This document shows, one piece after another, positions 1 to 53,649 of a stretch of 53,649 bases of DNA. The stretch's first letter is position 1; each line of letters starts with the position of its first letter. Source of the DNA: a virus; the IMG/VR virus record IMGVR_UViG_3300038678_000209, positions 1 through 53,649 of that record. One strand, written 5' to 3'. The position numbers were made by a program, and so were the translations under genes. A model generated the notes under the pieces. The model was given only the letters and a program-made list of their open reading frames with translations, searched no databases and was not told where the DNA came from.

Positions 1-127
1 TCCCGCCCGATAGCCGACGTGCGCAGGTTCCCACGACCTTTTCTCACCGCCAGTGGCTCGATGTTGCGGTAACGCATGAATCAACCGGTCCCCACCAATG
101 GCCGCTGTTATGGCAGTATCGGCCACA
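1..127. repeat. Left copy of 127-bp terminal repeat
   Basis: These 127 bases are identical to 53523-53649. A repeat of exactly 127 bases matches the largest k-mer used by common assemblers, so it is most simply the overlap left when a circular or circularly permuted molecule was assembled. The true circular length is then 53,522 bp. The sequence holds the start of the 53141-53599 gene, one 20-bp dispersed repeat and the end of the 108-3302 gene, so both genes are continuous across the junction. A genuine short direct terminal repeat cannot be excluded from sequence alone. Confidence 0.95.
82..101 (-). repeat. Dispersed 20-bp repeat, copy 1
   Basis: On the minus strand this reads CCATTGGTGGGGACCGGTTG, a perfect consensus copy. 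It lies between the end of the leftward gene 108-3302 and the start codon of the next leftward gene, five bases upstream of that ATG (counted on the circle). The GGGGA inside it is the only purine run near that start and may double as a ribosome binding site. The same copy appears at 53604-53623 because of the terminal overlap. Confidence 0.9.
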
Positions 128-3100
128 GGTCCGTATTGTCGTAGGTATCCACACCTGGTCCCTGTGTCCCGAATCGGTGAACTTTTTTGGCAAGCATCAT
201 TTTGAGCGCGCTCATTTTGCGCTGGAGTTGACGCTCGATTTCCGCACGCCGTTCGCTTTTGGCTTCGTTCGCGAGCACATCTAACGACGCGTAACAGGCG
301 ACTACGTGCTTGATGAGCCGCGAATACTGCGGCAGTACCTCGTATACCGTGGTGTCATCAGGGGCGGTGGTCCAATCGGGCCGCAGAGTCACCACCCGCG
401 TTGCGGTGTTGTACGCGGATGCGATGCGCTCTTGGCCGGCGCCTGTACCACTAAGCGTGCGGACCGTGTAGCCCGCGTAGGCGTGCGGGCGAATGTCGAG
501 TGTGCCGTCTGTTGGACTGGCCGGAAACGTAATCGAGTCGGCCGCTCCAGCAGCGGCAGTGGCGGTATGAATAGATACGTCACCTGCCGCGACATACAAC
601 ACCTCCAGTGTCTCAGCGGTGCGATTGAGGTGTTGAAACCGCAGTATGTTACCCTCGACCATAAATCCGTCGCCGCGAAATGTGTACGGGTTAGTGGGCC
701 AAACTTCGTGGGTTGGAATACCAGTATCCAAATCAATTTTTGCAATCCGCCAGATTTCAGCCATGTTGCATGGCAGCAAGTATTCTTGTGTGCCCTGTAC
801 AACTGGGACCTCGTACCGCACGAGGATTGGATGGTCCGTCTCGACGTTGATGGACGCGAGCACTTGATCGAACGCGCTGTGGATGTACTCGATCAAGTCG
901 GCGTCTGGGTACTTGGGTCCGGTGTCGGGTTCGTCAGTTGCCTTGCGGATGAGCGACACGCATTCGGACAAGAAGCCAACGCCGGATAGCGTACCGCTGG
1001 CAGAAACGACCAAGGGCGCGACCAAATCGGTGATTGCATCGCGGATAGCTTTAAGGGAATCGGTGCCGGTAGCGAACCCGGACCCCTGAATTGCTGTGGC
1101 TGCTTCGCCTAGAACCTCCAGCGAGTCAGTAGACGGCGTGTAAGTGCCAACGCCACTGGGAACCGTGGCTGCTTTGGACATCATGGCCCGAAGGTGACTA
1201 ATCAGGTTGTCGGGCGCAGAAGCTCCAAAGCCGGTAGACAACTTCAAAATCTCAACGAGGATAGCGGCACCCGGATCGGCCCAAACCTCAAACGTGTCTA
1301 CGCCTACTTCTGGGGTGAAGTCTAGAGCAGCATCCAAAGTGAAGGTGTTGGTGGACGCGGTGTAAACGCTTACGAGCCGGATATTAGGCTTGTTCCCAGA
1401 ATTCACGTCGCGGGCGAGGACCATCGCTCCGTTGTAGATGTCATCGGTGTCGTCTGCGCCCGCACCGGGAAGGTCGGCCGCCAACGCAATGAGTAGGCTG
1501 GCCGTTGAACCGGCTTGGATTGTAGTGTCGACAAGACGGGTAACCGGAACTGAATCGCTGCTCCATGCAGCGTCCCCACGATCCCGGATAGCTTCAAGGG
1601 AGTCAGTGGCAACCGCAAAGGTGCTGGTGTCGGAAGTCTTAGACATGATGTTGGAGAGTACTGTGCCATCGGCCACCTCAGGAGTCATATCGGGGTTGCT
1701 TGCGACCGGGGTCTTCATCAAGTGGTCAAGGTTGATGTCCAGCAGGGCCGTATCACATGCTGCATTGATCTGGTCTGGAGCAACCCGAGCAACCTCCGTA
1801 AGGGTAAGATTCGTAATCCCCGACGTTGAGATAATCCCTCGAATCGTCACCGTCCCACTGGTGCAGGTACCCTCGATGAGATTGGCCATTCCTTCGAAGT
1901 TCAGGGTATCGGTACCCGCATCCCCCATATTCTCAAGTTGGAGCCCACCGAAGTAATCGCGTACATGGACGTTTGAGCTGCCGAGGGCTCCCCCAAAGTC
2001 CAAAATCGGAGCCGTGGACCCAGTGACACCTGAGTGGCAAGAGTCCAACCAAATATCGCCTGCCTCAATGAGGGTCTGAGTTCCGGAAATCCGACAACTT
2101 TCCAGGTGGGTGTGGGCGATAAGGGAACAGGTCCCCATATCACAGTTTCGGAATGACTGGTTATCACCCGCGCCGGCCATCACTCCAGAAACATCGGCAC
2201 CCTCTACGTGGATACCAACCATTGTCTGACCCCCAAGGGCCAAGGTCCAGTTGTTACCAAAGAAAGAATAGGTAGATGCTGTAGCGGCAAGGGTAATGGA
2301 GGAACCGTTTATGACGTGGAAGTCCCGCATCCCCAAACTGGCTGCCAGAGTGAAGGCAGCCGTGATCGTGCTTACGGGATTGTCAGCGGTGCCGTCGACG
2401 AAGTCCTCCGTATTGGTATTGGACGCATTGGTATCTATGTAGATACGTCCATTTGAGTACCCGACTGAACGAGGCACAATAACGTAGTCGACTAGAATTT
2501 GATCGGTCTTGAGAGTAGTAGTGCCTACAAGGGCTACACTACCTGTCAGAAAGCGAATACGAACCAATCCCAGATTTGCCCCGGTCCCGGTATGAGCCGT
2601 TATTAGTTGATACTCAGCGTCCGCCAACGAAGTGTCGGAATCGAGGGTGCCAATTTGATCCCAGCCCGGAGTGCCCCAGTTGTATGCCCAAACCGTGAGG
2701 TTTTTTCCTGCCCCGGTCCCCTTGTCAAGTTGTATAGTGGCAGTAATCCCGCTGGCGAGTCCGTCCCCCCCGACAGAAAACTCGTAGTACACCTCAATCT
2801 TTTCGGTCCCATCCGTAACGGCTTCAATGTCATGTGTAACGCCGTCTTTGGCGAAGGTGCTATCCTCAGTATTGACTTCGTTCTCACCAGACGTTATGGT
2901 AAACCCGTTGGGGGATGCCTTGGGTGGAGTACTAACGGCAGACGAAGCCGGTACGAAGGGGTCTCCCAGTGTAATCTCCTCCACGGCGGGATGAAATCCA
3001 GTTTGAGTAACAACCAAAGTTACACCGGTGGCCCCCAAAGCAAAAGCTGCATCCGGCCAATCAACTCGGTATAAGCCGGGAGAAGACGTAGAATCCAGCT

Positions 3101-3302
3101 CAATCATCTTGTTGTCAGCGTGGGCAGAGTTTGTTGCGCCTAAAGCAGTGGCATCCACTTTGGCAGCAGGAGCCTCGCCGGTTCGTGTATACTGGAGATC
3201 AAAATTCGTTATGGTTGCGCCCGTCTCCGGCGCCCCAGTGGCAGAGTCCCCGACCATGACGGACCGAGTAACATTAGTCGTACCTTTGACAATGTTTGCC
3301 AT
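108..3302 (-). CDS. Large tail fibre-like protein with C-terminal adaptor-like region
   Basis: This is a 1064-residue protein starting at an ATG that overlaps the stop of the upstream beta-helix gene. Residues 1-120 look like a fibre-type beta domain. Residues about 125-275 are beta-rich. Residues about 285-500 carry a repetitive pattern rich in N, G, S and T, consistent with a right-handed parallel beta-helix. Residues about 500-780 contain recurring DSLEAIRD-like segments. The last ~270 residues differ in character: from PDADLIEYIHSAFDQVL onward they resemble phage head-tail adaptor proteins, with the helix, the VPVVQGTQEYLLP strand and a basic helical tail. If correct, this is a fusion of a receptor-binding or fibre-like protein to an adaptor, or an adaptor with a very large N-terminal extension. 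The assignment comes from sequence pattern only; structural prediction could change it. Confidence 0.6.
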   Translation of the reverse strand: MANIVKGTTNVTRSVMVGDSATGAPETGATITNFDLQYTRTGEAPAAKVDATALGATNSAHADNKMIELDSTSSPGLYRVDWPDAAFALGATGVTLVVTQTGFHPAVEEITLGDPFVPASSAVSTPPKASPNGFTITSGENEVNTEDSTFAKDGVTHDIEAVTDGTEKIEVYYEFSVGGDGLASGITATIQLDKGTGAGKNLTVWAYNWGTPGWDQIGTLDSDTSLADAEYQLITAHTGTGANLGLVRIRFLTGSVALVGTTTLKTDQILVDYVIVPRSVGYSNGRIYIDTNASNTNTEDFVDGTADNPVSTITAAFTLAASLGMRDFHVINGSSITLAATASTYSFFGNNWTLALGGQTMVGIHVEGADVSGVMAGAGDNQSFRNCDMGTCSLIAHTHLESCRISGTQTLIEAGDIWLDSCHSGVTGSTAPILDFGGALGSSNVHVRDYFGGLQLENMGDAGTDTLNFEGMANLIEGTCTSGTVTIRGIISTSGITNLTLTEVARVAPDQINAACDTALLDINLDHLMKTPVASNPDMTPEVADGTVLSNIMSKTSDTSTFAVATDSLEAIRDRGDAAWSSDSVPVTRLVDTTIQAGSTASLLIALAADLPGAGADDTDDIYNGAMVLARDVNSGNKPNIRLVSVYTASTNTFTLDAALDFTPEVGVDTFEVWADPGAAILVEILKLSTGFGASAPDNLISHLRAMMSKAATVPSGVGTYTPSTDSLEVLGEAATAIQGSGFATGTDSLKAIRDAITDLVAPLVVSASGTLSGVGFLSECVSLIRKATDEPDTGPKYPDADLIEYIHSAFDQVLASINVETDHPILVRYEVPVVQGTQEYLLPCNMAEIWRIAKIDLDTGIPTHEVWPTNPYTFRGDGFMVEGNILRFQHLNRTAETLEVLYVAAGDVSIHTATAAAGAADSITFPASPTDGTLDIRPHAYAGYTVRTLSGTGAGQERIASAYNTATRVVTLRPDWTTAPDDTTVYEVLPQYSRLIKHVVACYASLDVLANEAKSERRAEIERQLQRKMSALKMMLAKKVHRFGTQGPGVDTYDNTDLWPILP

Positions 3303-4363
3303 TACTGCTTTCCCGCTCGCTTATTCGGCATGAGGAGCCCCCCGCCGCCTCCGGCAACCGTACTTTCGATCGCGCCGATGTCAGCGCGCTGCGTGCTGCC
3401 GTTTTGTAGGTACCCATCAAATCCAGCGTTCTTCGCAGGGGACGCACTGCCAAGTGAATAGTCGCCTCCGGCTTCGTCTTCAAACTGCGGTGTCGAGACA
3501 ACTTCCCCCTCGAACGTTTGGAACCTGGAACCAGGGTAGGCTGTAGTGTTGTTATTCAAGAGGTTGTTTCGAGAAACGAAAAAGGTGCCCTGGCTCGCGC
3601 AATCAACTCCCTCGACACAATCATAGACAATGTTGTTGATTACCATTGTCCGTTTCCAGAAAGAACTCCCGAGATCGATGCCTGTGTTGGTGGTCTTACC
3701 GTCTCCGTCGATGGTGCATCTTAAAACAAACACAAACGTTCCGTTCCCACCCAAACACTCTATGGCATCGGCACCGTTCCCAAAGAATGTGCAATCAAAT
3801 ATAAACGCACCAGCACTTATTTCGGCTCCCTCACCCGTATTGTTGTCGAATCTGCATCCGATAACGAACGTTTGCCCGCTCCCATCTATTCCGGCACCGC
3901 CGTTCGAGCCGAATAAGCAGTTTTCAAAAAACGTGCGGTCACCACCAGCGTATCCATCCCCAGTTGAGTTAAGAAACGCACAGTTCTTAAAAATCAAATC
4001 GGAGCCGTCCATATTGGCATTGTTAACAGTCGCCCTTTTGAAGATGAAATTCTTGAATACGTAGTGTAGCGAACCAGTAATGGTATCGGCAATGCAAAGA
4101 GTGCGCGTGCTTTCTCCGTCTACGGTGGCTTGACCACCGTCTCCTGGTGTGCTTGTGTACCCCTCAAATGTGATGGTCGCGGATGAAGAACCGGCTGTGT
4201 CTATGAAAGCTGACTCGGTGTAATCGCCATCGGCTTTGACGTAAACTATATCGCCGGCTGCGACAGTATTCATGGCCTTATCTACGGTGGCCCATGCATT
4301 ACCTTCGCTCAGGCCGTCATCAACATCGTTGCCTGTCGCGTCCGAGACGTAGTAAGTTGCCAT
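3302..4363 (-). CDS. Parallel beta-helix tail protein (tailspike-like)
   Basis: The protein has 353 residues. It opens with YYVSDATGNDVDDG and AWATVDKAM, the usual entry of secreted or phage parallel beta-helix proteins, followed by short repeated turns such as NCLFGSNGGAG and DCTFFGNGADA. Near the end is SPAKNAGFDG with DIGAIES, a motif common at the C-terminus of such folds. It is clearly related to the 439-residue protein encoded just upstream (4747-6066), with matching GYTxTPGD, ISRNNLLN-like and SPAxNAGFD segments. A role in host binding or polysaccharide cleavage is likely, but no catalytic residues can be assigned. It is translationally coupled to the 1064-residue protein downstream through a TAATG overlap. 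Confidence 0.75.
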   Translation of the reverse strand: MATYYVSDATGNDVDDGLSEGNAWATVDKAMNTVAAGDIVYVKADGDYTESAFIDTAGSSSATITFEGYTSTPGDGGQATVDGESTRTLCIADTITGSLHYVFKNFIFKRATVNNANMDGSDLIFKNCAFLNSTGDGYAGGDRTFFENCLFGSNGGAGIDGSGQTFVIGCRFDNNTGEGAEISAGAFIFDCTFFGNGADAIECLGGNGTFVFVLRCTIDGDGKTTNTGIDLGSSFWKRTMVINNIVYDCVEGVDCASQGTFFVSRNNLLNNNTTAYPGSRFQTFEGEVVSTPQFEDEAGGDYSLGSASPAKNAGFDGYLQNGSTQRADIGAIESTVAGGGGGLLMPNKRAGKQ

Positions 4364-4378
4364 TGCGTGTGCTTTCGG

Positions 4379-4747
4379 TTACGGGCGCTGTTCAGGTCGG
4401 ATGAGGTTGCCGTCTTCGTCGTAGTGACCATGCATAGTATTGCCTTCCTTAGTGGGCCGGGTCACTGTACGACCATCCACCACAATATCTTCGGTCTCGG
4501 TCGGCTGATTTCGTGATACAACCGCTGTATTGGACCCTCCGACAGTGCTGCCGGGGGGCACTTCACAGTTGGTCAAATTGCACTCAAGAAACGACCGCGG
4601 CGTGTCGTCTCCTGGAAACAGCCGAACCCCATGCGCGCTGCTATCCTGATGAAACACGGGTTGCGGCTGCAAAAAGTTACAGCGGTAGTACGTGTCGTCC
4701 ACAACAGACGGCGTACTCTGCCCGGAAAAGTTCTTGCCACTTGTCAT
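4379..4747 (-). CDS. Small protein between two beta-helix genes
   Basis: A 122-residue protein beginning MTSGKNFSG. The ATG at 4747 is chosen because a strong GGAGG lies seven bases upstream and the start overlaps the stop of the preceding gene (TGATG). The sequence contains SFLECNLTNCEV, a beta-helix-like rung, and ends with GHYDEDGNLI, a pattern typical of short structural beta hairpins. It may be a small virion protein accompanying the spike proteins on either side. No family is recognised. Confidence 0.7.
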   Translation of the reverse strand: MTSGKNFSGQSTPSVVDDTYYRCNFLQPQPVFHQDSSAHGVRLFPGDDTPRSFLECNLTNCEVPPGSTVGGSNTAVVSRNQPTETEDIVVDGRTVTRPTKEGNTMHGHYDEDGNLIRPEQRP

Positions 4748-6066
4748 CACGCACCTCCTACATGCCAAGGATACAGAGGTGGAGTCTCGCCGGCCTCTGC
4801 AAGTTGCTGTTCAAGAGTTTGCTGTCGGGCTCCGATATCCATTCCTAAGTCGGTTCCCTCCAAAGTGCTCTCGTCGAACCCGGCGTTCCTCGCGGGCGAC
4901 ACAATGTTGAGTCGGTAGTCTTGGCTCGCCTCGTCTACAAAACCCGGAACGTCTAAAACTTCTCCCGCATACGTCGCGGCTCCACCAGCGTAGTTGTCCG
5001 TGTTGGCATTCAGAAGATTGTTTCGAGAGATAAGCAGCTCTCCTTGCCCTGACGGACTCTCGATTCCCGTTACGCAGTCGTGAACGATGTTGTTGACAAG
5101 GACATCCAAACTGTCGACTATCGGCTCCACATAGATGCCAAGGTTGCTGTCCTTTGAGTCCCCGTCAATCGTATTGTTTATCGCAATGCGAAATCCCAAA
5201 TTGAGCCCAGTAAAGGTGATTCCAGCACCACCGTTGCTGTAACACACGCACCCAAAAACCAACCCCGATTTGATCTTGATCCCGTCTCCCGCGTTACGGT
5301 ACGACCTGCATCCGATAACGACGGCAGACGAGTCGACGTGACACCCGTTATCGATGTTGTCCGAAAACTCGCACTCCTCAAACCGCCACCAGTCGTCTAT
5401 CTGTACCCCTGAACCCCCGTTGTTGTCAAACTTGCAGTTTTTGCATACGCCGTTGTCCAGACTACCAGAAATGCCGGCGCCGGTGTGGTTCGTACTCCGC
5501 ATGTTCTTGAAAACATGGTACACACCACTGGTTATAATGGTAGAAACCCCGCTACCTCTGGTTCCGCCCCCATTAATCGTGAACCTACCATCGTCACCCG
5601 GTGTAGTGGTGTACCCTTCAATGACGCATGGATCATCGATGGCAGCGACAACGTCGATGGTTATGGTCTCGGTGTAATCAGTGCCCCCCTTAACCCAACA
5701 CTTGTCCCCGGCGCCGTCAAGCGTCGTGTCCATGAACCGATTGATGGTGACAAACGCGCCTCCAATTGCCCACGTCAGCCCCGAAGCGGTCCCTGGAGTG
5801 GGCGTCACGGTTACCGTATCAAGGCCATCATCGACAGCAGTGATTTCAAAAAGGTCGGTACTGCGCCGACCGTTGATTTCACTATTGATGCGGATGCAAT
5901 CTCCCACCACCACAGCGGACAAGTCAGGAGTGTCGCTAGAAAGATCGACTGTGGTAGTTCCGTTCGTAGCCCCCGCGGTCCCGCTGACCTTGGCAGAACC
6001 GGCAGAGGTGCCCCCGTTGTTGTCAGAGCCCGCCACGTTGTCGACGTAGAAATCGTTGGCTGCCAC
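4747..6066 (-). CDS. Parallel beta-helix tail protein (tailspike-like)
   Basis: The protein has 439 residues and starts at a GTG. Residues 1-20 (FYVDNVAGSDNNGGTS) match the entry motif of phage beta-helix proteins. An inserted beta domain of about 80 residues follows, then EGYTTTPGDDGRFTINGGG and a ladder of short rungs with N, C and G (for example NCKFDNNGGSG and GCRSYRNAGDG). The C-terminal RLNIVSPARNAGFDE and DIGAR segments align by eye with the shorter protein at 3302-4363. The two probably arose by duplication and may form successive parts of one spike or bind different receptors. A catalytic activity such as lyase or hydrolase is possible but unproven. Confidence 0.75.
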   Translation of the reverse strand: MAANDFYVDNVAGSDNNGGTSAGSAKVSGTAGATNGTTTVDLSSDTPDLSAVVVGDCIRINSEINGRRSTDLFEITAVDDGLDTVTVTPTPGTASGLTWAIGGAFVTINRFMDTTLDGAGDKCWVKGGTDYTETITIDVVAAIDDPCVIEGYTTTPGDDGRFTINGGGTRGSGVSTIITSGVYHVFKNMRSTNHTGAGISGSLDNGVCKNCKFDNNGGSGVQIDDWWRFEECEFSDNIDNGCHVDSSAVVIGCRSYRNAGDGIKIKSGLVFGCVCYSNGGAGITFTGLNLGFRIAINNTIDGDSKDSNLGIYVEPIVDSLDVLVNNIVHDCVTGIESPSGQGELLISRNNLLNANTDNYAGGAATYAGEVLDVPGFVDEASQDYRLNIVSPARNAGFDESTLEGTDLGMDIGARQQTLEQQLAEAGETPPLYPWHVGGA

Positions 6067-9831: not shown

Positions 9832-10521
9832 CTAATTCCCTCCCTCAATTTTGATCTTTTCCACATTCACAATCGGCTGGACATTTTGTGACAGCGCAAG
9901 AAGCGCTGTGTCCACCGGCACATTCAACTCGGTTGCAGCGAATTTTGCCGCGCTAATTATACCTGCACATGACGCCTTCATAGCACATGACATTCGGCTA
10001 TGCGGGTCCTCGTGTTCAATCCTTTGGAACCTCGCGCAACGGATGCTCACGCCGCACCCTTCCAAGTCATCTACTACCGTACCGCGCAGCTCCTCTTCCA
10101 TAGCTCGGCTTTGCTCAGCGATAGTCTGGAATTCGTTGTCAGATAGTATCCGCCGCACGCACGCTTCCACAACTGCCAGTATGTGGACGGTAGGTTCATC
10201 GGATGACGCAAGGAACACTCCCAAGTCTACAATGTCGTAGATGATAATGGCGTCTGCGCTTAGCGCTACGCCGTCCCACGTCAGTCCAGTAACCTGTTCA
10301 GTTGACGCGACATTCCTAAGCGCGTGTTCCTTGACAATTGTTTGGCAAGATGTACAAATCCTCCACCCAGTTTCTAGTCCCGGTCCAGGATTCCCGAGTG
10401 TATACCTAACGGCGACTTCTCCTGGTCTTACGACGGCCCACTTCAACGGGAATAGCCAAACCACTGGGGTAACCAGCGCGTTCATCACCAATTCTAGGCA
10501 CCTTGCGAGGAACTCAAGCAT
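9832..10521 (-). CDS. SPFH/band-7 domain membrane-associated protein
   Basis: A 229-residue protein. A hydrophobic N-terminus (residues 1-30, LELVMNALVTPVVWLFPL) is followed by a stomatin/prohibitin-like (SPFH, band 7) domain: VVRPGEVAVRYTLGNPGPGLETGW near residues 30-50, then VASTEQVTGLTWDGVALSADAIIIYDIVD and the helical VEACVRRILSDNEFQTIAEQSRAMEEELRGTVVDDLEGCGV. Cellular SPFH proteins form oligomeric rings on membranes and regulate proteases or microdomains. Here the gene is coupled to the portal gene by a TGATG overlap and precedes the scaffold. Its role is unknown; possibilities are a membrane platform for assembly, protection against host proteases, or a virion component for entry. Confidence 0.8.
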   Translation of the reverse strand: MLEFLARCLELVMNALVTPVVWLFPLKWAVVRPGEVAVRYTLGNPGPGLETGWRICTSCQTIVKEHALRNVASTEQVTGLTWDGVALSADAIIIYDIVDLGVFLASSDEPTVHILAVVEACVRRILSDNEFQTIAEQSRAMEEELRGTVVDDLEGCGVSIRCARFQRIEHEDPHSRMSCAMKASCAGIISAAKFAATELNVPVDTALLALSQNVQPIVNVEKIKIEGGN

Positions 10522-12695
10522 CAAACGAACCCTTCCACGGGTACTTGCACACCGCCTGGCGGCTGGGTCGGAGGCGCTATGGCGCTGGCAGCAAGTGACT
10601 GGCCTTGTTGCTGTTGCTCAGCCGCAAGCCGCTGCTCAATCTCCGGCAACGCTTCCGCAGCCGCATCCTCTGGCAGCGGCAACCCCGCGGGATAGTCGCC
10701 CTTCATCCGTTCAAGGGCTTCTTTCCAAAGGACGAATTCCTGTTGCACTTCTTCGGTTGCCAGGCCGAACTCGATCTTGGACATGAACCGCTTCAACGCT
10801 CGCAGGTGTATGCTCGGGTCCTGCACGTGCTCGTCAAACTCAACCGGCCCCGGTTCCTTACCGTCGTTGAACAGCAAGATAATTTGCCAGATAGCCTTGC
10901 GCCATGTTTCGTACAAGTCTTTCGGTCCGCCCGGCACGTCCAGGTTTTCCTCGAACACTGCAAGCCAGTAGTTAATGTAGGACTCTTCCGGCGTCGCGCC
11001 AAGCAGCCCCGCCGCGTGATGCTCTGCCAATTCGCGCTTGCGAACGTCGGGGTCAGCGGGCACGCGGTCTTTCACATCCGTCTTGACTTCCCACGGTTGT
11101 GGTATCGGATTCTGCGCTAGTTCAAGCGATCCGGTTTCCGGGTTGAACACAACACCGGCCAGGTTCTCGTCGATGGTTGCTAGCTTAATCGTCTCGCCGC
11201 CCTGCAAGTTTTCGCGCGCCGACTGTAGAATGCGAGAGTAGATCGCAGCCATGCTGTCCGCCAAGTTCGCAGACGGCAGTCCCAATCCGATATTGCCCGT
11301 GTTGAACAGAAACCCGTGTCCTGCGGCGCCAATGTCCCGCCCGGCGGCTTGCCCCTCGTAGAACGGCCCCTGCCCAGCAAGGCTGTCGGATACGTCTTTC
11401 AAAAACACGCCAAAGTTTACGGGCAACAGCCCGATGTTCTTTGGTTGTATACTGATCGGCTGTGCGTTCGACGCTAGCGGATCAATTGTGTACTTATCCA
11501 TGCGCGGGCGGGGGCCGGGCTGGTTGTGCTTCTTCACATCGATGTTCATGCCGCTACTGACATACGTAGTGCCGAACATGTCCATTTCGCGGATGTTCCG
11601 CGCGACAGACGCGATGACCTTCTCGAACTGGTCATTGGCCGGAATCAGTGGTGCCACAAACCCACGTGAGAAGGCTGCTCCAGTATCCGTGTATCGCACT
11701 GCCTGTAACGGGCACACGATTCTGCGGCCTACAGCTTCGTAGTCGTCTTGGTAAATGATCTTGCGGCCGATCTTCAAGATGTACCGCGCCGTATAAGTCG
11801 CGTCATCCATGTACGGGTAGACTTCTTCCATCGGCACGTAGTAGCGGCCTGCCACATCAATGTCACGGTGCTCGTCCGCCTTGCCACTGCCAAGCGGCAC
11901 TCCCACAAATGCGCGCCCGCCGCCAATCTTTGGATCAGCCGGCGTCAGTACGTTGCCGTCTTGCAAGTACCGACCGTGTGTACCTCCCGTTGTTTCAGTA
12001 AGTAGCGAGTGGCCCGGCGGTTGGTTTCCCCACCCCACACGCACTCCAAGCAGATCAGATTCAACGTCGTACAGCGTATCCAAGTTGATGTCCCACCGGG
12101 TCTGTACGTAACTGCGGACCCACTCGTAGGGCATCCACCGCTTCCGCGCAATGCCCTGTATCGACTCGCAGCCCTCCGCAAACGCTGGCAAGAATCGAAG
12201 TTGCCTCGGCGGCACAACTTCGATGTGGTCTGGGTGTTGGGGGTCCGGCATTTCGTGGTGCGCAATGCCAACGATCCCGTACTTTACGAACGGCACTATG
12301 ATCGCGGTCTTAAGCCGATCAAGGTTAAGACCCGCCACACGTGCGTTCAATACCGCATTCGCGATCGCAGCGTTGCGCATGTCACCAAGCGATTCACCGC
12401 GCCGTCCTACTTTCGGCGATATGTCTGCGCGTAGCCACCGCCCCACTTCTACGAGGTAGCGGCGGACGATGTCTTCATAACGAAAGAGCACGTCCCCGCG
12501 CAAATGCTCAAAGCCGACCGCTACACGGCCAGCATACCGGTCGAGTGTCGTGAATTTTCTAGCGCCGCGGAGGTAGCCGTCGATGACTCTCCAGCCGGAC
12601 AAGTTGAGTCCCATTTCAGACTCGGCGGCAGTGAGTTCCATATCTAGGGATTCGGCCAGATGATCTTCGTCAGACGGTAGGTGATACCTTGCCAT
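10521..12695 (-). CDS. Portal protein
   Basis: A 724-residue protein with the size, order and composition of podovirus portals. The N-terminal half is mixed helix and strand with a long DNA-binding-style clip (residues about 150-330). A central NDQFEKVIASVARNIREMDMFG helix follows. The C-terminal part ends in an acidic/Q-rich barrel-like tail (EALPEIEQRLAAEQQQQGQS). The ATG at 12695 overlaps the upstream stop (TGATG). It forms the 12-mer ring at the packaging vertex, binding the terminase during filling and the adaptor afterwards. Confidence 0.85.
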   Translation of the reverse strand: MARYHLPSDEDHLAESLDMELTAAESEMGLNLSGWRVIDGYLRGARKFTTLDRYAGRVAVGFEHLRGDVLFRYEDIVRRYLVEVGRWLRADISPKVGRRGESLGDMRNAAIANAVLNARVAGLNLDRLKTAIIVPFVKYGIVGIAHHEMPDPQHPDHIEVVPPRQLRFLPAFAEGCESIQGIARKRWMPYEWVRSYVQTRWDINLDTLYDVESDLLGVRVGWGNQPPGHSLLTETTGGTHGRYLQDGNVLTPADPKIGGGRAFVGVPLGSGKADEHRDIDVAGRYYVPMEEVYPYMDDATYTARYILKIGRKIIYQDDYEAVGRRIVCPLQAVRYTDTGAAFSRGFVAPLIPANDQFEKVIASVARNIREMDMFGTTYVSSGMNIDVKKHNQPGPRPRMDKYTIDPLASNAQPISIQPKNIGLLPVNFGVFLKDVSDSLAGQGPFYEGQAAGRDIGAAGHGFLFNTGNIGLGLPSANLADSMAAIYSRILQSARENLQGGETIKLATIDENLAGVVFNPETGSLELAQNPIPQPWEVKTDVKDRVPADPDVRKRELAEHHAAGLLGATPEESYINYWLAVFEENLDVPGGPKDLYETWRKAIWQIILLFNDGKEPGPVEFDEHVQDPSIHLRALKRFMSKIEFGLATEEVQQEFVLWKEALERMKGDYPAGLPLPEDAAAEALPEIEQRLAAEQQQQGQSLAASAIAPPTQPPGGVQVPVEGFV

Positions 12696-26649: not shown

Positions 26650-26886
26650 ATGAAGGTTGAAAATGCAGAAACCGCAAGTAAAGGACAGTTGTTGAGTTCG
26701 TTTGGGCTGGGGGATTGCGTCCGCCTTGTTGGTCCGGAAAACGGTTTCGGTCACCCGTTTATCGGTCACGTATACATTGTCAGCAGTTTTAACGGGCATT
26801 CGGTGGCGGTCAATCTTTTCGATGGGTGCCACCGAGAAAGCGGTGGGTTCGTGCTCGAACCGAACGCGAAAGTCGTCATCGAATGA
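26650..26886 (+). CDS. Small hypothetical protein before DNA polymerase
   Basis: A 78-residue, beta-rich protein. GLGDCVRLVGPENGFGHPFIG followed by YIVSSFNGHSVAVNLFDG suggests a small barrel, like phage proteins of the KOW/SH3 type, but the match is only general. AATGGAG precedes the ATG. Its stop overlaps the polymerase start (ATGA), so it is coupled to replication. Confidence 0.7.
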   Translation: MKVENAETASKGQLLSSFGLGDCVRLVGPENGFGHPFIGHVYIVSSFNGHSVAVNLFDGCHRESGGFVLEPNAKVVIE

Positions 26887-29564
26887 ACTTCGCTCCAGGT
26901 AGTCACGTCTTGGAGGAGCCGCTTGCGGAGGGCTACTCGCGCCGCGTGGTGCCGACGTTTCCGCTGCACGTCAACGGACGGCAAACTGCCCTGCTAGTTC
27001 TTGGGGAGGCGCCTGGCCGGCAAGAAGACGAGACTGGCGAGCCGTTTGTTGGGTGGTCGGGCCAATTGCTCCGTACTGCGTACATCGACTACTGGAAGCT
27101 GCAGGACCACGCGGATGTGTTCTTGTCCAATGCGGTGCGGTCTCGCCCGCCTGGCAATCGCACGCCTAAGCCGAAAGAGATTAAGGCGCACGCGGACATG
27201 CTCGTCCACGACGTGACCGAATTGCAGTCGGCGTACTCAGAGGTGTTCGTGTTGTGCGCTGGTGCGGTGGCGTGCCAAGCGCTGGGCATGGCCAAGACGC
27301 TCACCGCAGCATTCAAGAGCCAAGGCGGCACTCTGCCATTCGCGTCGGGGCACGTGCGCGCGTATGCCACGTTTCACCCAGCGTCCCTTGCAGACCGTAG
27401 CAAAAACAAACGGCGCCGGGGACCACGCCGTGCCCGCACCGACAAAGGACCAGCGCTGGAGTCGCACTTGTCACTCCTGAAGCGGGCGCTATCAGGCCAG
27501 GACCCACCCGTCAGGTCTGTGCATTGTGATGGTGGCCAGTACTGGCTTACTGCACCAGGCTCTCACTACTCAGCACCTAACATTCCGAAGGTGCTATGCT
27601 GTGACATTGAAACGTGGGGCTGTTTAGCCGGACACGAGCAATCGCAGTTTCATCCCCAGAAGATTCTACATTGGGATGACGTGCCACAGTCGGAAGTGCT
27701 AGTAAGTGCTGCTGTATCTTGGGAAGGCAGCGCAGGATTCTACGACTTATCGGACCCTCATCACCGGCAGAATCTTGTAAACATGTTCTATTGGGCTCAA
27801 GTAGACGGTTGTACGCTGCTGTTTCATAACCTTGCGTTTGATGTGCCGTTTCTGCGTTGGTTTTTGCCGGCGTGTGCTCGGTACTTAGAGCCGCCGACCA
27901 AGTTTGCCGACTTGATGATTGAATCGCACATGGTGGATGATTTGCGGCCCGAGCGTTCACTCAAAGCGTTGTCGCCGCTCATGCTTGGCCAGCGCGGACT
28001 GTACACTGATGAGCAGCGCGCGCTTGAATACATAGGACCAGACGACCCTGAGCTGGCGCGCTACAATGTGGCTGATGTAGAGCGCACTCTGGCGTGTTAC
28101 CATCGATGCCGCGAAGCGTTCCCGCGCATTTACGGTACAGGTACGAACAAAGGCTCGCCATACGCAGACGATTGGTCCTCCAAGGTGTTGCATCTTGTTA
28201 CGCACATGACCGAAGTCGGCATCCCGATTGACGAGTCTGGCCTGCGCGCTTTGGACGTGCGGCTGCGTGTCCGCTTGGAGCGCATCGAACGGCTAGCACA
28301 GAGCGTCTTGGGCTTTGTACTTTCGGGGAAGGGCTCCGACATTTCCAAGCGCTCGGCGGTATCGGATGCCGCAGCGCTGTGCCCAGACGATGTCGCTGCG
28401 CAAGTTGCGTTGACCAAAACCGGCAAGTTTCCCTACGATGAAGTTACACGCGCGTTGCTCATGCCTGAAATCCAAGGACGCACTGGCAATTCACCGCGGC
28501 AGGGGGCATGGCGCAAGCTGCACGTGTTGGGGCTGCACCAAGGCGTTGCTAAGCTCATCAACACGTACACGGCGCCGATGCTCAGGGGCCGCGTCAAGAA
28601 GAAAGCGACTAAGGAAACCAAGACAAAGCCAGCGCGCGAAGCAGTTATCAACCACGCACCGCGTGTCATTCACGGGCGCATCTACCCGACGTGGTACCCG
28701 GTGCCCCGCGAGTTTGGGGACACGGGCCAGTCGGGTGGTACGCGGCAGATACGGTTTGCAGCCAAGGACCCGTCCGTTCCGACGTTTCCGCCCTGCATTA
28801 AAGACCTGCTGCAAATTGACATCTGGGCCGACTACTCAGGTATCGAACTGCGCACGGCTGCGCTGATGTCCGGTGACCCGGTGATGATGGCCGAGCTGTC
28901 CGGCGACGACGGCGACTTGCATACCCGCACGGCGCGCGTTATCCTTGGGAACAAGTTTGTAGATGACAGGATCAAGATGTACGGCCCGAAGGCGTGGAAA
29001 GGTGGCAAACACCGCTATGCTGGTAAGCGCACCAATTTTCTCATGCTCTACCTGGGAGGTGCAGACAAGCTGCAAGCTACACTCTTAGACGCGCTTGGGG
29101 AGAACTACCCGGTGTCCCGGTGCCAGCAGATCATTACCGACTTTTGGGCCGTGTACCTTGGACTGCGTGCTTTTCTTGACGGTGTGATTGACTTCGTTCG
29201 TCGCAAGGGCTATTATGAATTACCGCTGACGGGTCACTCGCGCTTGTTCGATCGGCACAACCCGCCGATCAACGAGTGTGCAAACTTCCCGTTTCAAGCG
29301 ACGGCGGCTGCCATCACAATTTGTGCTCAGTACGAGCTGTGGCAACTGGCGCGGTCAGAAGGTGTGGGGATGAACTGTGGCTGTAACATCTATGATGCTG
29401 TCGGAATCGAGCTGCACGCCCGCGAGCGCCGGCTGCACGGAACGCAGCGTGCTCGTGCTCTCATCGATCGCGCGCTCCCCAAGCCGTCGTACTACAGAGA
29501 CTTGTGTTCCCACTTGGGACGAACCTTACCCCTAGCCTACGAAGTAAAGGAACCAAAACGATGA
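26883..29564 (+). CDS. Family A DNA polymerase fused to uracil-DNA-glycosylase-like domain
   Basis: An 893-residue two-part enzyme. Residues 1-205 form a family-4 uracil-DNA-glycosylase-like domain: GEAPG at 41-45, EPFVGWSGQLL, RPPGNR at 89-93 and HPA at 165-167. The cysteine normally before RPPGNR, which holds the iron-sulfur cluster, is serine here. Residues 235-410 are a 3'-5' exonuclease with DIE (241-243), HNLAFD (315-320) and YNVAD (394-398). Residues 440-893 are the polymerase: motif A DYSGIELR (D650), motif B R711-K715-F719-Y723, and motif C YDA (D838), where the family usually has HDE. SPO1-like phages are known to have a UDG-like domain on a related polymerase. It replicates the phage genome; the N-terminal domain may sense uracil or aid processivity. 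Confidence 0.92.
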   Translation: MNFAPGSHVLEEPLAEGYSRRVVPTFPLHVNGRQTALLVLGEAPGRQEDETGEPFVGWSGQLLRTAYIDYWKLQDHADVFLSNAVRSRPPGNRTPKPKEIKAHADMLVHDVTELQSAYSEVFVLCAGAVACQALGMAKTLTAAFKSQGGTLPFASGHVRAYATFHPASLADRSKNKRRRGPRRARTDKGPALESHLSLLKRALSGQDPPVRSVHCDGGQYWLTAPGSHYSAPNIPKVLCCDIETWGCLAGHEQSQFHPQKILHWDDVPQSEVLVSAAVSWEGSAGFYDLSDPHHRQNLVNMFYWAQVDGCTLLFHNLAFDVPFLRWFLPACARYLEPPTKFADLMIESHMVDDLRPERSLKALSPLMLGQRGLYTDEQRALEYIGPDDPELARYNVADVERTLACYHRCREAFPRIYGTGTNKGSPYADDWSSKVLHLVTHMTEVGIPIDESGLRALDVRLRVRLERIERLAQSVLGFVLSGKGSDISKRSAVSDAAALCPDDVAAQVALTKTGKFPYDEVTRALLMPEIQGRTGNSPRQGAWRKLHVLGLHQGVAKLINTYTAPMLRGRVKKKATKETKTKPAREAVINHAPRVIHGRIYPTWYPVPREFGDTGQSGGTRQIRFAAKDPSVPTFPPCIKDLLQIDIWADYSGIELRTAALMSGDPVMMAELSGDDGDLHTRTARVILGNKFVDDRIKMYGPKAWKGGKHRYAGKRTNFLMLYLGGADKLQATLLDALGENYPVSRCQQIITDFWAVYLGLRAFLDGVIDFVRRKGYYELPLTGHSRLFDRHNPPINECANFPFQATAAAITICAQYELWQLARSEGVGMNCGCNIYDAVGIELHARERRLHGTQRARALIDRALPKPSYYRDLCSHLGRTLPLAYEVKEPKR

Positions 29565-50612: not shown

Positions 50613-53141
50613 CTACCCGGGCCGCGTGGATGCTTCAGATGCGGACAATTGGCCCCGCACCAACAGCGCGTCAATCTCGAAATCCATGTTGGACCCGTAT
50701 GCCTCCAGGAATGGGTACAGCTTGGTGCCACCGCGATTCGCGCGCACGTTCACTTGGTCGGGCACGCGGTTTACACGCACCGCACTGGTTGTGAGCACTG
50801 TATCCCGCGTTCGCAGCCCCATGTCAACAAATGCGTTGGGATCGGACGCGGTGGTCTCGCCGCTCAGTTCCTCGATACTTGCGCTCATAGAATGTCCCAC
50901 CTTCCGCGGAAATGGATCATCAGACCCCATTCCAGACAACCTGGCAAACCGCGCACGGAATACCACGGGCGCGATCGAGTAGCGGTCGTCCACGGACAGC
51001 GCGCCGGGCAAGCCGCTTACAGTCAACTCGGTGTCGGACACGCGGGCTGTAATCTCCACCTCCGAGGCAGCGTGATCGCCGGACAGAATATACGCGCTGT
51101 GGCCTACAACGTTTTGCGGAAACGTAGCGCCGCTGTCGATGATCGCTGTGGCTGAGGCTGACGTAACCTGCCCGTTTACAGTGTCGGACGCACCGGCGCC
51201 AACCATAGTGATTTTGCCGGACTCGCGGAAAGCGTCAATTACGCTGACCGAGCCGTTGGATGCAACCAAGTAACTGCGCTGTCCCGCGCCGTTGGATAGA
51301 ACATCCTGGCCGTCAGTTACGAAAGCCCACGGGCAATTCACCACACGTGTGACGGCTCCAGTGGCCTCCCACAAGATGACCATTTCCTTCTTGTTCGTGT
51401 TCAGAAGAATGAGTGCGCCGGCAAACGAATCATACCCAAGTTTCACCTCGGAAATTGTTTTGCCCCACTGGCGGTCGTCAGTGATGAGCCGGTTAACGAG
51501 TTTGACGTTGCGCACCTCGTTGGTCAAGCCATCAATTTCCTTTACGCCGGTGGCCGTCAATACATAGAGCGTGTCCCCGGCCGCCACTGCGCCGTCTTGG
51601 CTCAGGGCCGAGATTTTGTTGACAATGCGGGTTACCGTAACGCCAGTGCCTGCTCGCGCTATACGGTACACAGACTTGTTCGTGAGAGCAAAGGCAACTG
51701 ACGACCCCGCGTACAGATTAAGTACGTGTTCAGAAGGATCGTTTAGCGGCTCGTAGTTGAGCACAGGAAAGTTTTCCGGCTCATCAAGATTAATAGCACT
51801 CCAGACAATGCTCTCAGGCAAGCGGTCCTGCTTGGTCCACGATTCATCCAAACCGGCATCGTCCGGCGACGCCTGATCTGTAACCCCAATGAGCATGTTA
51901 TCAAAGCCGAGCACGCGCTTCATGCGCGGTGCAGCCCCGAAGTCGTGATGTTCCGGGCTGTACTCCTCGCTGGTGAACAGCCCCTCATCTGCAATGTGCT
52001 CGATGTCACGCACGAAATCGGTAGTTTTGCCATCCACGTCTGCCACAGTAAGCTGCCAAGACGCAGACCCCACTCCACTTGGCTGTGTAAACAGTGGTTC
52101 GTATGGTCGGTACTCGTAGAGCCGCTGAACCGGTCGGTATTTACCCGCAGTCACCCCGGTCTCGTTGCGGGGTGTTCTCCAAAGACGGAATCCATCTACA
52201 TGTCCAACCCCCCAATGCAACGGCGCTGTATCGGTATCGCTGATTTGGCGCCGCAACTGGTGATAACCAGGCGTAGGATTGTCTTGCGGAAGCCATAGTT
52301 TGTTGAACACGTAGCGTGCGCTCTCAGTTGCTCCCGCCCCAACAGAGTGTGTCTTGAGCCGCAAGAAGGACCGCAAGTTGTGTTTTTGTGATACAAGTTC
52401 GGCGCCGAATGTATACTGTCCCTCTGCCAGTGTGCGGCCGGAGGTGGTTACTTCCACGTTAAAAATGTTGGTGGGAGTGCCAATGCGGTCTGTGTTTACC
52501 GAGGTAACCAAACAGCGCTCCGGCAGGATTCCCGCAATGCGGCCTTGCCACCCACCAGCGTACCGGTCCCAATCGTTGACCTTGAAATCCCAAAAGTACG
52601 CTTTGTTGTAAGGTGGTGCCCTGAGATTTACAATGCTCACGGTACTAGTAGAGGCTCCCGAATTAACGAAGTACAAGTACCGCCCCAAGTAACCGATGTC
52701 GTACCGATCAAATGACGTGGGCTTCCAGTCAGTCCACAAATTGAAGTCTTCAAGTTGCACAACGTCGGCACTACCGTCTTCTGAATCGCGGTACGCAAAG
52801 TAGAGGGCTTTTCCGTCCGCAGTTTGGTTGTCCGCCAAGATGACCAGACCAGAAAGTGTGTAGGGTGATACACCCTTTTGCACACTTGCGTACCTGACCA
52901 GTTGGATGTTGTCAATTTGCTCAATTGTAGTTACGCCGGTCTCCGGCGCGGGGATGCCGTGAATGGACTCGCCGCCAAAGCCGGGAAACACGCGCAATCC
53001 ACCCTCGTTCCGACCATCAACTCCAGTGGCTTCCACCAGCATCCGCGGATCAACAGCGTTGGGGGACATGCGCAAGTCCATGCCGGGAAACCACGGCCGG
53101 TAGAACCACTTTCCATGGTTGTCGTGTTTCCGTTCAGGCAT
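50613..53141 (-). CDS. Tail hub/nozzle candidate (beta-propeller-like)
   Basis: An 842-residue protein made almost wholly of beta strands. Repeating segments such as LYFAYRDSEDGSADVV, IGYLGRYLYFVNSG, MLIGVTDQA, LYAGSSVAFALTNKSVYRI and LYVLTATGVKEI are propeller-like blades with a turn every ~45 residues. IVWSAINLDEPENFP resembles a motif in podovirus tail tubular or nozzle proteins. It probably forms the distal tail tube opening and carries spikes. The start overlaps the preceding stop (TAATG). Confidence 0.65.
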   Translation of the reverse strand: MPERKHDNHGKWFYRPWFPGMDLRMSPNAVDPRMLVEATGVDGRNEGGLRVFPGFGGESIHGIPAPETGVTTIEQIDNIQLVRYASVQKGVSPYTLSGLVILADNQTADGKALYFAYRDSEDGSADVVQLEDFNLWTDWKPTSFDRYDIGYLGRYLYFVNSGASTSTVSIVNLRAPPYNKAYFWDFKVNDWDRYAGGWQGRIAGILPERCLVTSVNTDRIGTPTNIFNVEVTTSGRTLAEGQYTFGAELVSQKHNLRSFLRLKTHSVGAGATESARYVFNKLWLPQDNPTPGYHQLRRQISDTDTAPLHWGVGHVDGFRLWRTPRNETGVTAGKYRPVQRLYEYRPYEPLFTQPSGVGSASWQLTVADVDGKTTDFVRDIEHIADEGLFTSEEYSPEHHDFGAAPRMKRVLGFDNMLIGVTDQASPDDAGLDESWTKQDRLPESIVWSAINLDEPENFPVLNYEPLNDPSEHVLNLYAGSSVAFALTNKSVYRIARAGTGVTVTRIVNKISALSQDGAVAAGDTLYVLTATGVKEIDGLTNEVRNVKLVNRLITDDRQWGKTISEVKLGYDSFAGALILLNTNKKEMVILWEATGAVTRVVNCPWAFVTDGQDVLSNGAGQRSYLVASNGSVSVIDAFRESGKITMVGAGASDTVNGQVTSASATAIIDSGATFPQNVVGHSAYILSGDHAASEVEITARVSDTELTVSGLPGALSVDDRYSIAPVVFRARFARLSGMGSDDPFPRKVGHSMSASIEELSGETTASDPNAFVDMGLRTRDTVLTTSAVRVNRVPDQVNVRANRGGTKLYPFLEAYGSNMDFEIDALLVRGQLSASEASTRPG

Positions 53142-53599
53142 TATTTCCGCACCACTACAAATTCGCGGGACATATCCCCCAGCAGCGCATTGAGTACCTG
53201 CGCAACATTCGCCACTGTAGGACTGGCCACATCCAGCTCTCTTGATACAGTACTGTCGTCGGACGCGTATAGCCGCCGTATGGGAGACGGCCCCTCTGCG
53301 GCAAACTCATCGCGCCCACCCCGCCTGCGATCCTGCGCCAGCTCATTCACTGGTACCATATCCGGCATTTGGCGGGTTGGCTTGTCTTGTTCCCACTCTG
53401 ACTGCACAGACTCGTGCTGAAACGTCTCCTCTCCAACGATCAACGTAGGCGCCGCCGAGCGGCGCATGTCTGGCTCAAATGGCGATGCCAGTTCACTTGG
53501 GCTGAACAACCGAACGCGCGTTTCCCGCCCGATAGCCGACGTGCGCAGGTTCCCACGACCTTTTCTCACCGCCAGTGGCTCGATGTTGCGGTAACGCAT
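53141..53599 (-). CDS. Hypothetical protein before tail hub
   Basis: A 152-residue protein. A basic N-terminus (PLAVRKGRGNLRTSAIG) is followed by a charged middle and a helical end (PTVANVAQVLNALLGDMSRE). The 20-bp repeat lies five bases upstream of the ATG. It lies between the large fibre/adaptor gene and the tail hub, so a small tail or adaptor partner is likely. Confidence 0.65.
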   Translation of the reverse strand: MRYRNIEPLAVRKGRGNLRTSAIGRETRVRLFSPSELASPFEPDMRRSAAPTLIVGEETFQHESVQSEWEQDKPTRQMPDMVPVNELAQDRRRGGRDEFAAEGPSPIRRLYASDDSTVSRELDVASPTVANVAQVLNALLGDMSREFVVVRK

Positions 53600-53649
53600 G
53601 AATCAACCGGTCCCCACCAATGGCCGCTGTTATGGCAGTATCGGCCACA
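53523..53649. repeat. Right copy of 127-bp terminal repeat
   Basis: Identical to bases 1-127. It includes a second sighting of copy 1 of the 20-bp repeat at 53604-53623. On the circular map it should be counted once. Confidence 0.95.

Follow-up and report, generated by a model that had tools for sequence, protein, structure and literature searches.

A podovirus-type adaptor fold and a beta-rich N-terminal arm encoded by a single gene of an uncultivated phage

Head-to-tail adaptors are usually small, conserved connectors, and fibres are separate parts that are swapped rapidly; the question raised by the locus described here is whether a single chain serves as both. The window, by which we mean the whole stretch of 53,649 nucleotides that was analysed (IMG/VR record IMGVR_UViG_3300038678_000209), carries on its minus strand a single unbroken open reading frame that starts with an ATG at 3302, runs to 108 and encodes 1,064 amino acids. 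A sequence-only reading had proposed that a fibre-like part and an adaptor are fused in this gene, a claim that is borne out by the single frame, by the adaptor fold of the C-terminal part and by the recurrence of the fusion in eleven relatives. We put at about 0.8 the probability that the product of this gene is an adaptor of the portal vertex to which an arm is covalently joined.

Genomic setting of the fused gene

The two ends of the window are identical over 127 bp (1-127 and 53523-53649), and the record is therefore probably circular, at ~53.5 kb, or a complete permuted genome. The structural genes lie on the minus strand and cross the seam of the window, the gene that follows the fused gene (53599-53141) beginning just beyond it. 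Their order on that strand is terminase-like, portal, scaffold and capsid-like, two beta-helix-type genes, the fused gene, a 152-aa gene and a putative nozzle. The features around the fusion are as follows.

108..3302, minus strand: whole fused gene, 1,064 aa, stop codon at 108-110; the same fusion is found in 11 relatives
53141..53599, minus strand: small, poorly conserved gene of 152 aa separating the fused gene from the putative nozzle
50613..53141, minus strand: putative nozzle, 842 aa, downstream of the fused gene and conserved next to the fusion in the relatives (alignment 41-83% identity)
3302..4363, minus strand: beta-helix protein, 353 aa, adjoining the fused gene (PF13229, E 1.1e-9); similar genes lie here in L008 and L013
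4747..6066, minus strand: second beta-helix-type protein, 439 aa, sharing 40% identity with that of 353 aa

The labels portal, scaffold and capsid-like were assigned from gene order and size only. Family searches with the capsid, portal and putative nozzle of the window returned no match, and thus no confirmation of a nozzle function for the 842-aa protein; the gene order is consistent with an adaptor placed between capsid and nozzle. The portal, the large terminase (TerL) and the putative nozzle gave zero tblastn matches among 50,697 phage records, and the phage thus belongs to a lineage without a sequenced isolate in those records.

Several other features of this genome were recorded. The two beta-helix-type genes ahead of the fused gene (3302-6066, minus strand) are candidates for separate spikes or decoration proteins. 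At about residues 675-725 the putative nozzle (50613-53141, minus strand) contains a module that weakly resembles the small beta module of the fused protein described below (hhalign E 0.048). At 9832-10524 on the minus strand, with the portal-like gene on one side and the scaffold-like gene on the other, lies the gene of an SPFH/Band 7 protein (PF01145, E 1.4e-10), a membrane-associated family for which this position is unusual. An open reading frame at 26826-29564 on the plus strand combines a uracil-DNA glycosylase domain (PF03167, E 8.7e-17, residues 53-195) with a family A DNA polymerase (PF00476, E 1.4e-16, residues 667-867). The 19-bp element AACCGGTCCCCACCAATGG occurs as eight dispersed copies with at most one core mismatch (85+, 9608-, 12897-, 24218-, 26490+, 37444-, 38408+ and 50377-), in both orientations and both within and between genes, against a chance expectation of 0.02; nine copies, one of them the seam duplicate, are found when up to two mismatches are allowed, and the sister phage L008 has one exact copy. 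The element is possibly operator- or stoperator-like, or a phage promoter.

The C-terminal adaptor domain

Three features make up the C-terminal part of the protein.

111..983, minus strand: head-to-tail adaptor domain, residues 774-1064 (VIA-align; BFVD E 7.7e-15; hhalign score with SU10-family adaptors higher than in any of 40 column shuffles)
330..581, minus strand: beta domain inserted in the adaptor, residues 908-991 (structure matches by VIA-align)
111..173, minus strand: conserved C-terminal tail, residues 1044-1064, a candidate portal-embracing segment with a G-DT-DN motif in all relatives

Residues 693-1064 were modelled with AlphaFold2 from an alignment of eleven sequences (the window protein and ten homologues), with a mean pLDDT of 65.5; confidence is low in the linker and the C-terminal tail and lies mostly at 66-90 in the adaptor core, with a minimum of 54. 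In the model a four-helix bundle is formed from two helix pairs (777-789 and 800-822; 992-1013 and 1016-1043), between which lies a small beta region (strands 827-905) corresponding to the fibre dock. The elements thus follow the order alpha1-alpha2, beta, alpha3-alpha4, as in T7 gp11, and two helices, a beta region and two further helices are the plan of both T7 gp11 and SU10 gp11 (PMC6702177, PMC9509320). VIA-align placed the model against some 20 solved podovirus adaptors with Z scores of 7.6-11.7 over 158-182 aligned residues, the span covered being model residues 83-356, equivalent to residues 775-1048 of the window protein. The best scores were obtained with HRP29 (Z 11.7), KHP30 (11.6), T7 gp11 (11.1, 7ey7_M), KP32 (10.3) and SU10 (8.9), and the top rows consist nearly entirely of podovirus adaptors (HRP29, KHP30, Carin 1, T7, Kp7, PhiM1, KP32, P-SCSP1u, VP1, SU10, N4 and DEV). 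Models that have no clear match usually score Z 7-8 in this comparison, a level that the best adaptor rows exceed. Foldseek searches of BFVD returned a 306-aa protein (A0A1B1IV71) at E 7.7e-15 and a 296-aa 'Head to tail adaptor' (A0A8S5UJN4) at E 1.2e-10; these uncultured-phage adaptors are the best fold matches, are about the size of the adaptor part and are too short to carry an arm.

At the level of sequence the adaptor is divergent. Seven of the eleven family members match the Pfam family PF24175 (SU10_adaptor) weakly, the best at E 0.0012 and 19.8 bits, and all of these matches fall below the curated cut-off of 27 bits; the window protein has no PF24175 match, and by that family's own cut-off the fused protein lies outside SU10_adaptor. 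Neither Pfam nor PHROGs had a match to any part of the window protein, and direct sequence searches of the PDB gave nothing relevant. A profile alignment with ten SU10-family adaptors is nevertheless collinear, with an hhalign score of 24.0, and none of 40 shuffles of the columns scored above 21.2. The last ~290 residues, as modelled, are a podovirus head-to-tail adaptor at the level of fold. The sequence-only reading, to which the C-terminal ~270 residues had looked like a portal-binding type of adaptor and which had named structure prediction as the check, is upheld on this point, since podovirus adaptors head the structure matches (Z up to 11.7) and the domain is not merely another fibre domain. 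Its two-part division of the protein also stands, with the boundary, which it had placed at ~780, moved: the split lies nearer residue 775 than 780-790.

The domain inserted at residues 908-991 is of a type found in tail-tip, baseplate and spike proteins. It matches the gene transfer agent (GTA) structure 6tba_7A (Z 10.2), JBD30 8rk3_O, chi 8vjh_D, T5 Dit 4jmq_A and a Klebsiella capsule lyase. It might be argued from this tail-tip or spike module that the whole C-terminal domain is some other fibre or baseplate domain that merely resembles an adaptor. We consider this very improbable. The match to adaptors extends over 160-180 residues and takes in the first beta region as well as both pairs of helices, with Z scores above the 7-8 of unmatched models; a named adaptor is among the BFVD matches; and the sequence support, if weak, is collinear. 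The sequence matches found in Klebsiella, Raoultella and Pam2 phages are confined to the inserted module (residues ~940-1000) and have no bearing on the adaptor, and L012, which matches solely through this module, was rejected as an adaptor relative. In L018 the family-profile positions of the adaptor insert (224-300) also match a second stretch of the same open reading frame, in the arm (E 7.5e-4), and from this second match one module has probably been used twice within the chain. The tail at residues 1044-1064 is disordered in the model though conserved, and by analogy with T7 and SU10 it may be a segment that embraces the portal.

The N-terminal arm and the fused family

Ahead of the adaptor, four modules and a linker can be delineated.

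2958..3302, minus strand: N-domain, residues 1-115, Ig-like beta fold (pLDDT mostly 66-84, 54 at residues 51-60)
2472..2918, minus strand: beta-sandwich resembling carbohydrate-binding modules (CBMs), residues 129-277 (Z 6-8 to CBMs and the phi812 baseplate, VIA-align)
1713..2459, minus strand: predicted right-handed parallel beta-helix, residues 282-530 (best Z 10.0 to GH87 5zru_A, 221 residues, rmsd 4.9)
1263..1538, minus strand: small beta module of the DDxYN type, residues 589-680 (Z 7.1 to lambda tail tip 8k35_A)
984..1247, minus strand: stalk-like linker, residues 686-773, with TDSLE/TDSLK motifs (low pLDDT, one helix at 749-773)

The AlphaFold2 model of residues 1-690 has a mean pLDDT of 57.2 and is beta-rich, some parts being without a confident fold. 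The N-domain is 55-92% identical among the type-1 relatives. The CBM-like sandwich, modelled at low-to-moderate pLDDT, is confined to the window, L008, L019 and L023, together with a standalone arm protein (L043). Residues 282-530 match GH87 beta-helix enzymes at Z 9-10 (VIA-align), with pLDDT reaching 70-82 only at residues 381-460. The L018 stretch equivalent to the small beta module is the one to which the section of the family profile covering the adaptor insert also aligns. The earlier description of the first part as fibre and beta-helix structure probably holds for the window protein, which is beta-rich and GH87-like at residues 282-530, and does not extend to every relative, the beta-helix being optional in the family; because some of them lack it, the label 'fibre' suits the window member better than the family as a whole.

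Scans of IMG/VR viral contigs converge on the same eleven relatives that contain the adaptor, and all eleven are fused, their adaptors being preceded by 234-936 residues and the whole proteins being 530-1225 aa long; contigs of GTDB genomes yielded no relative. That the window is one uncultivated contig speaks for an assembly or frameshift artefact, but because the architecture recurs in 11 other IMG/VR contigs (530 to 1225 aa) the fusion is not a frameshift or a chimera of one assembly, and the chance of such an artefact is close to negligible. In L014 and L015 the adaptor is preceded by 234 residues, comprising N-domain and linker, and the beta-helix is absent. One contig with the putative nozzle and no adaptor match (L035) was considered as an exception and set aside, being a linear fragment that starts inside the nozzle gene.

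A free adaptor was also sought. No conserved internal start with a Shine-Dalgarno sequence was found at the adaptor boundary, and each of the six relatives searched over the whole record (6/6) has one such adaptor gene. The sequence-only reading had held that there is no separate adaptor gene; in the window none was found with PF24175, an SU10-family profile or the adaptor part itself, sequence searches being weak for adaptors as divergent as these, such that the first two also miss the known one.

The linker modelled at low confidence between the two parts would suit a precursor that is cleaved after translation into a fibre and an adaptor. Its register, however, is fixed across the fused family, with the TDSLE-type motif 49-51 and the TDSLK-type motif 27-29 residues ahead of the adaptor start in 12/12 genomes, and it is 50-82% conserved even in distant members, which suits a structural stalk better than a disposable spacer. 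No candidate protease for such processing was noticed, and we regard cleavage as unlikely. A similar motif (TDSIEALRD) is present in a standalone fibre-like protein of the siphovirus record MW202621, and for this reason the linker may derive, judging from sequence, from a fibre stalk.

The modules have been exchanged among these proteins. Between the window and L013 the adaptors are 64% identical and the N-domains are unrelated, whereas between the window and L023 the beta-helix is 81%, the N-domain 72-74% and the adaptor 44% identical. The N-domain that replaces that of the window in L013 and L018 has no detectable relation to it, type 1 and type 2 giving no significant hhalign match by which homology could be detected. 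The standalone L043 protein (794 aa), from another phage, carries a similar sandwich/beta-helix module (44% identical) and the MW202621.1 protein (720 aa) an N-domain related to that of the window (33%); both end in other C-terminal sequences and not in an adaptor. Sequence comparison thus indicates that N-terminal modules and adaptors have separate histories, with recombination inside the chain. This is the exchange pattern of host-range modules, but with the virion anchor at the C-terminus rather than the N-terminus: the N-terminal virion anchor that defines a tail fibre or tailspike is absent, the anchoring adaptor being C-terminal in 12/12 proteins.

Possible role of the arm at the portal vertex

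By analogy with T7 and SU10, twelve adaptor subunits would form a ring at the portal clip and provide the seat of the tail. The N-terminal ~770 residues would then form an exchangeable arm, consisting of the Ig-like domain, the carbohydrate-binding-like sandwich, the beta-helix, the small beta module and the stalk-like linker, which we infer to project from the neck, in matching copy number, while held by its C-terminal end. Such a polarity would be opposite to that of the usual separate trimeric fibre, which docks by its N-terminus. The likely job of the arm would be first contact with surface polysaccharide, or the carrying of further beta-helix spikes at the neck; from their position and folds, the arms probably touch surface glycans.

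The main rival to a receptor-binding arm is that the N-terminal part of the fusion decorates the neck or serves there as a platform for docking: the conserved N-domain would bind other virion parts, such as the beta-helix proteins encoded nearby, and the beta-helix would be an ornament that members can do without. Consistent with this, N-domain and linker remain where the beta-helix is absent (L014 and L015, 234 residues), and the window, L008 and L013 have separate beta-helix genes immediately ahead of the fused one. The 530-aa short relatives, moreover, have almost no arm past the N-domain, which means that the fused part can do without a receptor-binding function. Against it, the N-domain is swapped in L013 and L018 for one with no detectable relation to it, which better fits a host-facing module, and CBM-like and beta-helix folds are those commonly seen in spikes that bind glycans. 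We give decoration or docking an appreciable chance, about one that a third of the weight would express.

The adaptor fold itself is already known from T7 and SU10; the covalent arm sets the fused protein apart from both. T7 gp11 (tail tubular protein A) shares the helix-bundle and beta-domain plan, but it is an armless protein of ~196 aa, and the fibres of that phage are separate gp17 proteins docked at the junction of gp11 and gp12. The SU10 adaptor gp11 (PF24175), which resembles the fused protein in fold, in a weak sequence match and in a collinear profile alignment, supplies attachment sites for fibres, six separate trimeric gp12 long tail fibres being attached by their N-termini; the fused protein, in contrast, has one arm per adaptor chain, joined at its C-terminal end. 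Annotated genes of SU10-family adaptors encode armless proteins of ~200-250 aa, the Vp_R1 annotation being shorter. No precedent for an adaptor-fibre fusion was found in the open-access literature searched; PMC10386132 was rejected as a precedent, the 'fusion' that it describes being recombination between genomes.

These observations lead us to suggest, tentatively and at somewhat less than even odds, a short-tailed phage lineage that has no separately docked fibres, in which the exchangeable host-recognition module is the N-terminal part of the adaptor, displayed as twelve covalent arms attached by their C-termini, such that host contact could act directly on the genome-sealing ring. If the arm does bind the host, receptor contact and genome release would be connected by a covalent route, and the standing question of how fibre contact opens the podovirus neck would become testable. 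The fused protein would also be a natural example of module display on the portal vertex.
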